Below are positions 45,705-47,715 of a stretch of DNA of 64,000 nt, piece by piece; the first letter of the stretch is position 1, and each line of letters starts with the position of its first letter. This DNA comes from an uncultured Acidimicrobiales bacterium. Its GTDB lineage: Bacteria; Actinomycetota; Acidimicrobiia; Acidimicrobiales; SZUA-35. The notes beneath the pieces are model-generated. The model did not search any database. It was not told the origin of the DNA and saw nothing but the letters and a program-made list of their open reading frames with translations. Both the position numbers and the translations under genes were made by a program. The stretch spans positions 1 to 64,000 of the forward strand of contig CALKZY010000001.1 in assembly GCA_938002965.1 (NCBI GenBank). Reading direction: 5' to 3'.

Positions 45705-46700
45705 ATGGCACGACAGCTTGTCTCCGGACGCTCATCTCTTCCACCAGCCGACTACCTGGCTGAAACTCGAGCGTTATACGACTCGCTGGGATACGACTCG
45801 TACCGGTGGGCCGAACGAGCAGACATCGTTCCGCTGACGCCGATCGCCAAACCGCTGTCGGCGAGCAAGGTCATGTTGATCGGATCCGGCGGCGTGTACC
45901 GACGGGGCCAAGTTGCGTTTCACACCAAAGACGACACGTCTATTCGGCTGATCGCTTCAGATAGCCCAACCGAAGATCTTCGCACGGCCCACTTCGCCTA
46001 CGACCAAACAGATGCCAGGTTCGACATCAATTGTGTATTCCCGCTGCAACACCTCCGCAGGCTGGTCGACGACGGTCTGGTCGGCTCCGTCACCGACGTT
46101 CACTGCGCGTTCATGGGTGGAATCTACTCAACTCGACGGTTGCTGACCGAAACTCTCCCCCACTTGTTGCAGCAGTGCGAGCAACAACAACCAGACATCG
46201 TCTTGCTGGTACCCGTTTGACCGGTCTGCCACCAGTCGGTCGGTCTGATCGCACGAGAACTCGAAGTAGCTGGCTACCCAACAGTGGGTTTCACCTCCGC
46301 CTGGTCGATCACCGAGAGGGTTCAGCCGCCCCGGACGGTGTTCGTTGATGCCCCTCTCGGTCACACCACCGGCGCCCCGGGCGAGTCATCTACCCAACTT
46401 CAGCTGCTCACCGACGGCTTGGCCGCCGCCGCAGCCATCAACGACTCGGGCACTATCGTCCCTCTGCCCTACCGGTGGAGCGACGACGAATGGAAGACCG
46501 ATGCCTTGGCCTGGAGCCGACATCGCCAAGACCTCGGCGACACCGGCCGACCCCCGGGGTCAGCACCAAGCGACACCCGAACTGAGCGGAACCCTGAGCC
46601 CCAGTACCAAAGCGAAGACGACTCCCGACTTGCCGACGCCACCGACTGGGGTGACCAGTGTTTAGTCTGCGTTGGCATCGAGCCGTCAGAGTCGGTCTGA
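45705..46700 (+). CDS. Candidate selenoprotein: GrdB/PrdB-like reductase B subunit, with in-frame TGA at 46218
   Basis: One frame runs from the ATG at 45705 to the TGA at 46700, interrupted only by a TGA at 46218-46220 (codon 172). Upstream: PDIVLLVPV; downstream, with no shift: PVCHQSVGLIARELEVAGYPTV, then PLGHTTGAPGESSTQ. Both halves fit the glycine/sarcosine/betaine/D-proline reductase selenoprotein B family, where the same site is U or Cys followed by PxCHQ. So the site would be a redox U-x-x-C. Length with Sec is 331 residues. A hairpin starts at the TGA. Alternatives: a nonsense mutation or sequencing error. Substrate is not evident; no Grd/Prd partner lies nearby. Confidence 0.75.
46218..46241 (+). 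promoter_or_regulatory. Possible SECIS-like hairpin at the in-frame TGA
   Basis: GACCG (46219-46223), which includes the last two bases of the TGA, pairs with CGGTC (46237-46241). Inside it CTG (46226-46228) pairs with CAG (46233-46235) around CCAC. A second CGGTC at 46241-46245 offers a larger alternative fold. The apical loop is 9-12 bases after the TGA, rather closer than in E. coli fdhF. Confidence 0.45.
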
Positions 46701-46806: not shown

Positions 46807-47715
46807 ATGGCAGCTGAACTTGGATTCGATGGCAAGGTAGCAGTCGTAACCGGTGCAGGCGGCGGGCTTGGCCGTGAACACGCCCTGGAGTTCGCCCGAC
46901 GAGGCGCCCGGGTTGTAGTCAACGATCTTGGCGGCTCCGTGGACGGTTCCGGCGGTTCCACAGGTCCGGCCCAAGACGTCGTGGCGGAAATCGAGGCTCT
47001 TGGTGGCGAAGCCGTCGCTGACGGCAACAGTGTGGCCACTGAAGCCGGTGGCGAAGCCATCATCCAAACAGCCATCGACAGCTTCGGCCGGGTGGACATT
47101 GTGGTCAACAACGCCGGAATCCTACGGGACAAGACATTCCACAAGATGACCGACGAGCTGCTAACACCGGTCATCGACGTTCACCTCAAGGGTGCTTTCT
47201 ACGTCACCCGACCGGCTTGGCTGCACTTCCGGGAGCAAGGCTACGGACGAGTCATCAACACCTCTTCGAGCTCCGGCTTGCTCGGCAATTTCGGCCAGGC
47301 CAATTACGCCGCGGCCAAGATGGGCCTTGTCGGTTTCACCCGGGTTCTGGCCGCCGAAGGCGCCAAGTACAACATCAACGTGAACGCCATCGCCCCAGTG
47401 GCCAAGACTCGCATGACCGAGGATCTGCTTGGAGCCATGGCCGAACAGCTTGACCCGAAGCTTGTCACCCCGTTGGTGGTCTGGCTGGCTCATGAGTCAA
47501 ACACGACAACCAGCTCGGTGTACTCGGCCGCCGGAGGCATCATCTCCCGGTTCTTCATCGGTTTGACTCAGGGTTCCAACCTGGGAGCGGACTTGACCGT
47601 TGAGTCAGTTCGCGATGGTTGGGATGACATCAACAGCGAAGACGGCTACCTGGTTCCATCAGGTCCGGCCGATGAGTTCGGCAAGCTGCTTAAGCAGTTT
47701 GAAGCCGGCCAGTAA
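46807..47715 (+). CDS. Short-chain dehydrogenase, 3-hydroxyacyl-CoA dehydrogenase (MFE2-like)
   Basis: A 302-residue NAD(P)-dependent SDR. VVTGAGGGLGREHALEFARRGARVVVNDLGG at 13-43 is the cofactor site with an Asp favouring NAD, NNAG at about 100 and YAAAK at about 175 with upstream Ser give the catalytic triad. NDLGGS and the extended C-terminus match the dehydrogenase unit of peroxisomal multifunctional enzyme 2, which oxidises (3R)-hydroxyacyl-CoA. AAGGAAA just upstream of the ATG is a good ribosome site. It may work with the Mcr-like racemase and hydratase in this window. Confidence 0.88.
   Translation: MAAELGFDGKVAVVTGAGGGLGREHALEFARRGARVVVNDLGGSVDGSGGSTGPAQDVVAEIEALGGEAVADGNSVATEAGGEAIIQTAIDSFGRVDIVVNNAGILRDKTFHKMTDELLTPVIDVHLKGAFYVTRPAWLHFREQGYGRVINTSSSSGLLGNFGQANYAAAKMGLVGFTRVLAAEGAKYNINVNAIAPVAKTRMTEDLLGAMAEQLDPKLVTPLVVWLAHESNTTTSSVYSAAGGIISRFFIGLTQGSNLGADLTVESVRDGWDDINSEDGYLVPSGPADEFGKLLKQFEAGQ

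Follow-up and report, generated by a model that had tools for sequence, protein, structure and literature searches.

A reading frame with a single internal TGA codon was found in the window, a 64,000-nucleotide stretch of DNA from an uncultured Acidimicrobiales bacterium. We hypothesize, with a probability of roughly 0.6, that this frame encodes a stand-alone selenol reductase of 331 residues from the GrdB/PrdB family, which would act without a partner subunit and would be recharged by a CxxC motif of its own. Insertion of selenocysteine (Sec) at codon 172 is predicted with near certainty. The family has long been known from metagenomes and is hence not rare, and the window gene differs from the enzyme that gives the family its name in two tested features. 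The features of the locus are as follows.

45705..46700, plus strand: PrdB-like selenoprotein gene, 331 residues if UGA 172 encodes Sec
46218..46220, plus strand: TGA codon 172, predicted Sec in the motif U-P-V-C-H-Q (TGA in 80/80 loci, the best 80 of 238)
46225..46255, plus strand: site of the family SECIS-like hairpin, columns 8–38 from the UGA, located by family covariation and a dip in codon-shuffle folding
46497..46697, plus strand: C-terminal extension, residues 265–331, past the TIGR04483-aligned part
46659..46670, plus strand: C-terminal CxxC (C-L-V-C, residues 319–322), proposed resolving dithiol
46807..47715, plus strand: short-chain dehydrogenase, next gene downstream, a neighbour at clade level only; membership of a common system not shown

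Reading frame and family assignment

The frame starts with ATG at 45705, ends with a terminal TGA at 46698–46700 and contains one internal TGA only. The context of the latter, LVPV-U-PVCHQSV, and its place at 46218–46220 (codon 172) were confirmed as reported in an earlier sequence-only reading of this DNA. In Pfam, the protein narrowly passed the gathering cut-off of PF07355 (GRDB; 23.3 bits against 22), with a match covering a 101-residue stretch only. The top NCBIfam match was TIGR04483, D-proline reductase PrdB (E 1e-42), which aligned residues 44–259 with profile positions 20–235 of 238 at 146.2 bits, under the curated equivalog cut-off of 300. The TIGR01918 subfamily model (glycine/betaine/sarcosine reductase B) gave 31 bits, under its cut-off of 65.45, and the protein was far under the cut-offs of the NCBIfam models for GrdB, GrdF and GrdH. 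The U/C-x-x-C redox motif was present at the PrdB-family position as U-P-V-C. Judged by these profile matches, the label "GrdB/PrdB-like selenoprotein" holds at the family level. Of the earlier designation "GrdB/PrdB-like B subunit", the relation to the PF07355/PrdB family stood, and the term "B subunit" proved misleading, as no pyruvoyl partner was found.

The AlphaFold2 model of the window protein had a pLDDT of 89 and a pTM of 0.90, with residues 319–322 and 325–331 at a pLDDT below 50. No solved structure matching the model at E ≤ 0.001 and no credible sequence relative in the PDB were found.

Conservation of the TGA codon and of both halves of the protein

A scan of GTDB genomes returned 238 relatives, of which the best 80 by similarity to the window protein were kept, a selection that may favour tailed forms. 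All of these 80 loci carried TGA at the same codon. According to their database labels, they belonged to Acidimicrobiia, Gammaproteobacteria, Candidatus Binatia, Myxococcota, Acidobacteria, Chloroflexi and others. Of 296 genomes from the window's own class, 88 had a homologue, and at least one in-frame TGA was counted by hand in 112 of the 115 matches from these 296 genomes; the exact place of the TGA was checked only for the fetched loci, namely the best 80 of 238 and the class loci L022–L050. For 28 of the latter 29 loci its place coincided with the motif, the search pattern having missed L045. The rarity implied by the sequence-only reading was thus contradicted, both by the 88 class genomes and several other phyla and by ocean surveys, in whose available text such genes are common (PMC1088965, PMC2398784). 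A conserved internal TGA within a continuing frame is far beyond chance.

Homologues without Sec were taken from a set of 204 proteins, in which only those of at least 250 residues were used; the window protein itself (P0001) and 13 rows lacking the motif were not counted. The Sec position was occupied by Cys in 73 of the resulting 75 proteins and by Thr in the other two, and the Cys homologues extended through the downstream half. This agrees with the earlier statement that the family has Sec or Cys at this point, and the alignment at codon 172 gave U or Cys in the relatives apart from the two Thr forms.

Fluent protein had been noted on both sides of the TGA, and the downstream half was indeed conserved. 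Codon 172 was TGA in all three relatives used for the selection comparison (L051, L054 and L055). Against the nearest of these, L051 (80% identical), dN/dS was 0.088 upstream of the TGA and 0.061 for residues 173–264, and the tail had a dN of 0.132 with dS saturated. The ratios against L054 were 0.215 upstream, 0.299 downstream and 0.422 in the tail; those against L055 were 0.111 downstream and 0.21 in the tail, with dS saturated upstream. These ratios indicate that purifying selection acts both upstream and downstream of the TGA of the window gene.

Most of 93 database homologues were annotated at approximately 180–220 residues, and the short ones that were inspected stopped at LVPV or alike, directly before the TGA. 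As most database relatives are cut at the UGA, their annotation shows neither the second half nor the tail.

Selenocysteine machinery of the host genome

The genome to which the window belongs is a draft of 4.69 Mb in 57 contigs (91% complete, 6% contaminated). It contained a tRNA-Sec with the anticodon TCA (66.3 bits against a cut-off of 47), selA adjoining selB, and selD (365 bits; G000:C17:47905-48840, L017). This selD has an in-frame TGA of its own in the context GAG-U-ACK and is itself a predicted selenoprotein. The full Sec set of selA, selB, selD and tRNA-Sec, for which a check had been proposed, was therefore present in the draft. Together with the sel genes and tRNA-Sec, the Cys homologues and the family hairpin described below make the earlier proposal of Sec insertion at codon 172 very likely.

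The tRNA-Sec, selAB, selD and the window gene were spread over four contigs, whose tetranucleotide correlations with each other were 0.93–0.96 in a comparison without a foreign control. Contamination as the origin of the sel genes was considered and rejected, since contig composition agrees (subject to the same lack of a foreign control) and relatives carry selA. In the window's class, selA scored over the cut-off in 200 of 296 genomes and, by hand count, in 82 of the 88 with a homologue. Among the selA-less genomes with a homologue, the homologues of G158 and G194 had no TGA, and those of G174, G188, G234 and G292 had one; the latter four assemblies were 70, 79, 90 and 96% complete, respectively. 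Of 50 genomes bearing GTDB-scan loci (50 of the best 80 of 238), 44 had selA over the cut-off.

Two matches to the terminal-oxidase subunit I family PF00115 were found in the draft, and these predicted genes fit an aerobic host. The earlier description of an unusual stand-alone protein in an aerobe was borne out in its stand-alone part and in the probable aerobic lifestyle; the word "unusual" did not stand.

RNA structure at and after the UGA

The hairpin set comprised 81 sequences, reduced to 61 by removal of near-identical ones; base pairs were counted on 60 of the 61, with L059 left out. Compared with synonymous codon shuffles, the 42 nucleotides from the UGA folded more stably, with a mean z of −1.24 ± 0.12 (n = 61). 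The overlapping windows gave z −1.21 at offset −6 and −0.72 at +6, and the remaining ones lay between −0.49 and about 0.25, except for offsets +18 to +36. There, z reached values of up to +1.19, meaning less folding than in the codon shuffles, as though the RNA were kept open; counted from the UGA, the poorly folding stretch covers offsets +18 to +77, corresponding to 46236–46295 in the window.

The consensus upper stem was AUCAGUCC paired with GGACUGAU (columns 14–32). Three of its pairs had changes on both sides, namely UA/CG in 9, GC/AU in 6 and UA/AU in 5 sequences. The covariation score was 0.145, whereas shuffles averaged 0.107, and none of 500 shuffles reached the observed value. In the family structure 84.5% of the cells paired, compared to 28–40% when the structure was slid along the alignment. 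Measures over the whole structure (double-change pairs, further pair types) were not above shuffles, and the version slid by −1 had more double-change cells than the structure itself (32 against 21). For the 61 sequences, RNAalifold reached no more than −1.99 kcal/mol, perhaps because two of the pairs are disrupted in the window clade.

In the window copy, the upper stem is formed by 46231–46237 with 46243–46249 around the loop GGUCG, with the mismatches C.A and U.U. Folded as a single sequence, the region after the UGA of this copy showed no advantage over shuffles, with z between 0.19 and 1.41. The window clade (16 of the 81 sequences) carries the same C.A and U.U mismatches in the family upper stem and was compared with a sample of 40 of the 65 other sequences. 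Its z values were −1.14 ± 0.25 at offset −6, −0.62 ± 0.21 at 0 and +0.59 ± 0.20 at +6, whereas the sampled other sequences had z −1.11 at +6. The +6 window contains the hairpin but not the UGA, so any fold in this clade includes the UGA, and the family hairpin has no support there. A SECIS-like hairpin is thus supported as a predicted element of the family; the window copy alone, and its clade at offset +6, did not support it.

Search for a pyruvoyl partner

GrdB and PrdB are known for acting on a pyruvoyl-bound substrate. They work in complexes in which a pyruvoyl subunit (PrdA or GrdE) holds the substrate, according to the available part of a review (PMC13188914). No match to the corresponding family PF09338 was found in the window's genome, a draft of 91% completeness. 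The same search returned matches in 20 of 296 class genomes, which shows that the model works here. As regards PF09338, the absence of nearby reductase partners remarked on earlier can therefore be extended to the entire draft. PF09338 was likewise found in none of 50 genomes bearing GTDB-scan Sec loci (50 of the best 80 of 238), in a search in which no control gave a match, although it used the model that had worked in the class genomes. GrdA (PF04723) gave no match in the window's genome, with no control genome ringing either.

By hand count, 15 of the 88 class genomes with a homologue contained PF09338. In two of them, G022 and G138, the match adjoins a weak homologue, which probably is a true GrdB. 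In the class family f45, PF09338 was present in 9 of 10 genomes with a homologue (hand count), on a different contig from the homologue or, in G272, separated from it by more than 175 kb. The f45 homologues were 46–48% identical to the window protein. All nine in PF09338-bearing genomes were without the tail CxxC; the homologue of the tenth genome (G137, locus L032) had the tail CxxC, and PF09338 was not found there. The pattern of the f45 loci (L029, L031–L039) looks as if the tail might replace the partner; it concerns one clade and was seen after the fact. The tail-less loci L022, L024, L026–L028 and L030 sit in genomes in which PF09338 was not found. With one clade only and such tail-less loci in PF09338-free genomes, no rule connecting the tail and PF09338 was drawn.

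We regard it as very probable that the window protein is not a subunit of a D-proline reductase. Without a pyruvoyl group, D-proline or glycine held as a Schiff base is an unlikely substrate for it.

C-terminal extension and CxxC motif

The PrdB profile stops within a few residues of residue 259, and the window protein continues with an extension of approximately 70 residues that finishes in QCLVCVGIEPSESV. Neither this tail nor its CxxC was mentioned in the sequence-only reading. CPTC and CPGC resemble thioredoxin-type motifs. Of 80 Sec loci (best 80 of 238), 71 had a CxxC among their final 30 residues and 9 did not; the spacers among the 71 included CPTC (15) and CPGC (8). In the 75 Cys or Thr homologues of at least 250 residues, some of which may be cut by contig ends, no CxxC occurred in the last 35 residues, and the tails of the 13 rows lacking the motif contained none either. 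Within the window's class, the tail CxxC was present in 3 of the 18 class loci L022–L039 and in none of the 10 divergent loci of L040–L050 that matched the motif pattern.

A tree was constructed from 109 of 184 rows after removal of redundancy, leaving out the divergent subfamilies except six rows; the search was a quick one that did not use the mixture model, and the divergent rows include long branches that come together. Of its 109 rows, 59 had Sec and 46 were tailed. Sec/Cys changes occurred at least 5 times and tail changes at least 9 times on this tree. Starred branches alone gave 2 independent Sec–tail pairs and the full set of branches gave 5; the sign test was not significant, so the link between Sec and the tail rests on few independent events. 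A Cys clade (P0013, P0022, P0004, P0030, P0095, P0097 and P0098) was placed inside Sec lineages with a support of 84–92 (unstarred), and six of its seven members retain a single tail Cys, a pattern that would be expected from coupled loss.

On balance, we favour the view that the tail of the window protein is a resolving arm. In the literature covered, the tail CxxC was not found described, which makes it a new observation within that scope: a search by title and the start of the abstract, with preprints and most subscription journals outside its range, returned no account of a PrdA-less form or of the tail CxxC.

Gene neighbourhood

The gene upstream of the window gene encodes an FAD-dependent oxidoreductase with a weak match to geranylgeranyl reductase. 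The short-chain dehydrogenase downstream recurred within 1.7 kb, at an identity of at least 76%, in only 6 of 80 loci (best 80 of 238), namely L051, L055, L057, L058, L059 and L064. When 846 ORFs around the 80 loci were clustered, no cluster was common to more than 19 of them. Neither a conserved neighbour nor a solved relative gave a pointer to the substrate. Named from representative sequences, the nearby clusters included enoyl-CoA hydratase-like proteins (19 of 80 loci), short-chain dehydrogenases (14) and acyl-CoA dehydrogenases (8). In three database proteins (P0083, P0086 and P0088), an alpha/beta hydrolase or CoA-transferase III domain lies in frame upstream of the UGA-cut PrdB-like part; these are possible gene fusions that hint at function.

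Comparison with described systems

With clostridial PrdB (TIGR04483), the window protein shares the core and the U-x-x-C motif, as far as the available text of PMC13188914 describes them. It differs in its score under the cut-off (146 against 300 bits), in the additional CxxC-bearing extension of approximately 70 residues, in the terminal-oxidase genes of its host, and in that PrdA (PF09338) was not found in the window's genome or in 50 further genomes (from the best 80 of 238). The B proteins of glycine, sarcosine and betaine reductase (PF07355; GrdB, GrdF, GrdH) have a U-x-x-C type motif in common with it, and the Pfam gathering score was passed; in contrast to these, the window protein matches only 101 residues of PF07355, is far under the NCBIfam cut-offs and has no detected PF09338 partner. 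FarB/FarE, the fluoroacetate reductive dehalogenase of Cloacibacillus, is, in the accessible portion of its description, a GrdB-family selenoprotein recruited to another substrate, with a GrdE-like partner and an anaerobic host (PMC10838667). Such a partner was not found in the window's genome.

Ocean surveys have counted genes of this kind as "proline reductase PrdB" since 2005, and the family is among their commoner selenoproteins, as far as the accessible portions go (PMC1088965, PMC2398784). The Sargasso Sea survey filed 42 Sec sequences with U-x-x-C under Proline reductase PrdB (PMC1088965), and the GOS survey listed 235 Sec and 110 Cys sequences under the same name with pfam07355 (PMC2398784). 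Likened by description, namely the shared U-x-x-C and, in GOS, pfam07355, these marine sequences and the window gene very probably belong to the same family. The portions of the two surveys that were available assign proline reduction by homology and make no mention of a missing partner, a tail CxxC or paralogues. In similarly partial text, a later marine survey gives proline reductase as 6.4% of selenoprotein genes (PMC9402790), a genome survey reports 131 proteins in 110 organisms (PMC5029168), and two reviews handle the family as D-proline reductase (PMC13188914, PMC9312934).

Proposed mechanism and alternative explanations

Selenolate attack on the substrate is the role of Sec in GrdB and PrdB. 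In the proposed mechanism, SelB would read UGA 172, aided by RNA structure at and directly 3′ of the UGA. The selenolate of U172 would then attack a small polarised (electrophilic) substrate, and a selenenyl sulphide may form between U172 and C175 of the U-x-x-C motif. This bond would be reduced by the tail dithiol C319/C322, which a thioredoxin-type reductase could recharge.

The most serious alternative, itself unlikely, accepts the stand-alone selenoprotein and takes the CxxC for a zinc or other metal site, a structural site or part of a partner-docking tail. The CxxC residues are modelled at a pLDDT below 50, several Sec-containing clades have no CxxC, and the Sec–tail link was not significant on independent pairs. 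Against it stand the recurrence of the thioredoxin-like spacers CPTC and CPGC (15 and 8 of 71) and the occurrence of the CxxC in none of the 75 non-Sec forms. A role in acyl-CoA or related catabolism, with the neighbouring dehydrogenases and hydratases as pathway partners, appears improbable: the enoyl-CoA hydratase-like (19/80), short-chain dehydrogenase (14) and acyl-CoA dehydrogenase (8) clusters near the best 80 of 238 loci and the three proteins with a hydrolase or CoA-transferase domain would suit it, but the positions of the neighbours are scattered and lineage-specific, with no cluster in more than 19 of the 80.

Still less probable is that the protein is a D-proline reductase PrdB proper, its PrdA lost in an assembly gap or too diverged for detection. 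This reading would explain why TIGR04483 is the top NCBIfam match (E 1e-42), it agrees with the assignment of marine relatives in the accessible parts of the metagenome papers (PMC2398784, PMC1088965), and PF09338 does occur in 9 of 10 f45 genomes with a homologue, on other contigs or far off. It is opposed by the score of 146.2 bits, where the curated cut-off is 300, by the roughly 70 extra tail residues, and by the failure to find PF09338 in the window's genome and 50 further ones, which gaps are unlikely to explain altogether given that the model works in 20 of 296 class genomes. Hardly credible is a UGA that represents a true stop, a sequencing error or a decaying gene with an N-terminal product of 171 residues only. 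The short annotations of most of the 93 database relatives, with the inspected ones ending at LVPV or alike, and the degraded family hairpin in the window clade would fit such a stop. The downstream half, however, is conserved and under purifying selection, TGA is kept in 80/80 loci (best 80 of 238), the genome has the Sec genes, and the Cys homologues continue through the same half.

Beyond the partner-free selenol reductase of the window, a more tentative generalization, for which the chances are somewhat below even, is that the "proline reductase" selenoproteins of oxic settings are mostly partner-free selenol reductases with a dithiol arm of their own. The arm would have evolved with Sec and been lost at Sec-to-Cys changes, and in aerobic Acidimicrobiia, as in many further phyla, the proteins would cleave bonds of some other kind reductively. 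In the available text of ocean surveys, proline reductase ranks as one of the most abundant selenoproteins of the sea, and amino-acid metabolism is deduced from it; if their counts hold the partner-free form, that deduction is wrong. A widespread selenium-dependent activity in oxic bacteria would then await a substrate. The missing PrdA and the C-terminal CxxC make the proposal directly testable.

Paralogues and divergent relatives

Two PrdB-like paralogues with an in-frame TGA in UPVCH were found in the window's genome, outside the DNA available to the sequence-only reading (L137, G000:C18:233874-234701; L138, G000:C32:75250-75726). They represent distant subfamilies, 29 and 34% identical to the window protein, and both have stable folds after the TGA (−21.1 and −18.6 kcal/mol over 50 nucleotides). 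Seven loci (L041–L044 and L048–L050) form a separate subfamily with PG-U-PMCHRS, an in-frame TGA and a shorter C-terminus. In the two Thr homologues, P0032 and P0037, Thr replaces Sec/Cys (VPV-T-PVCHQS), by which the redox motif would be broken. The gene was also carried by metagenome-assembled records labelled Ferrithrix thermotolerans (L066) and Klebsiella pneumoniae (L130), of which at least the Klebsiella label looks wrong.
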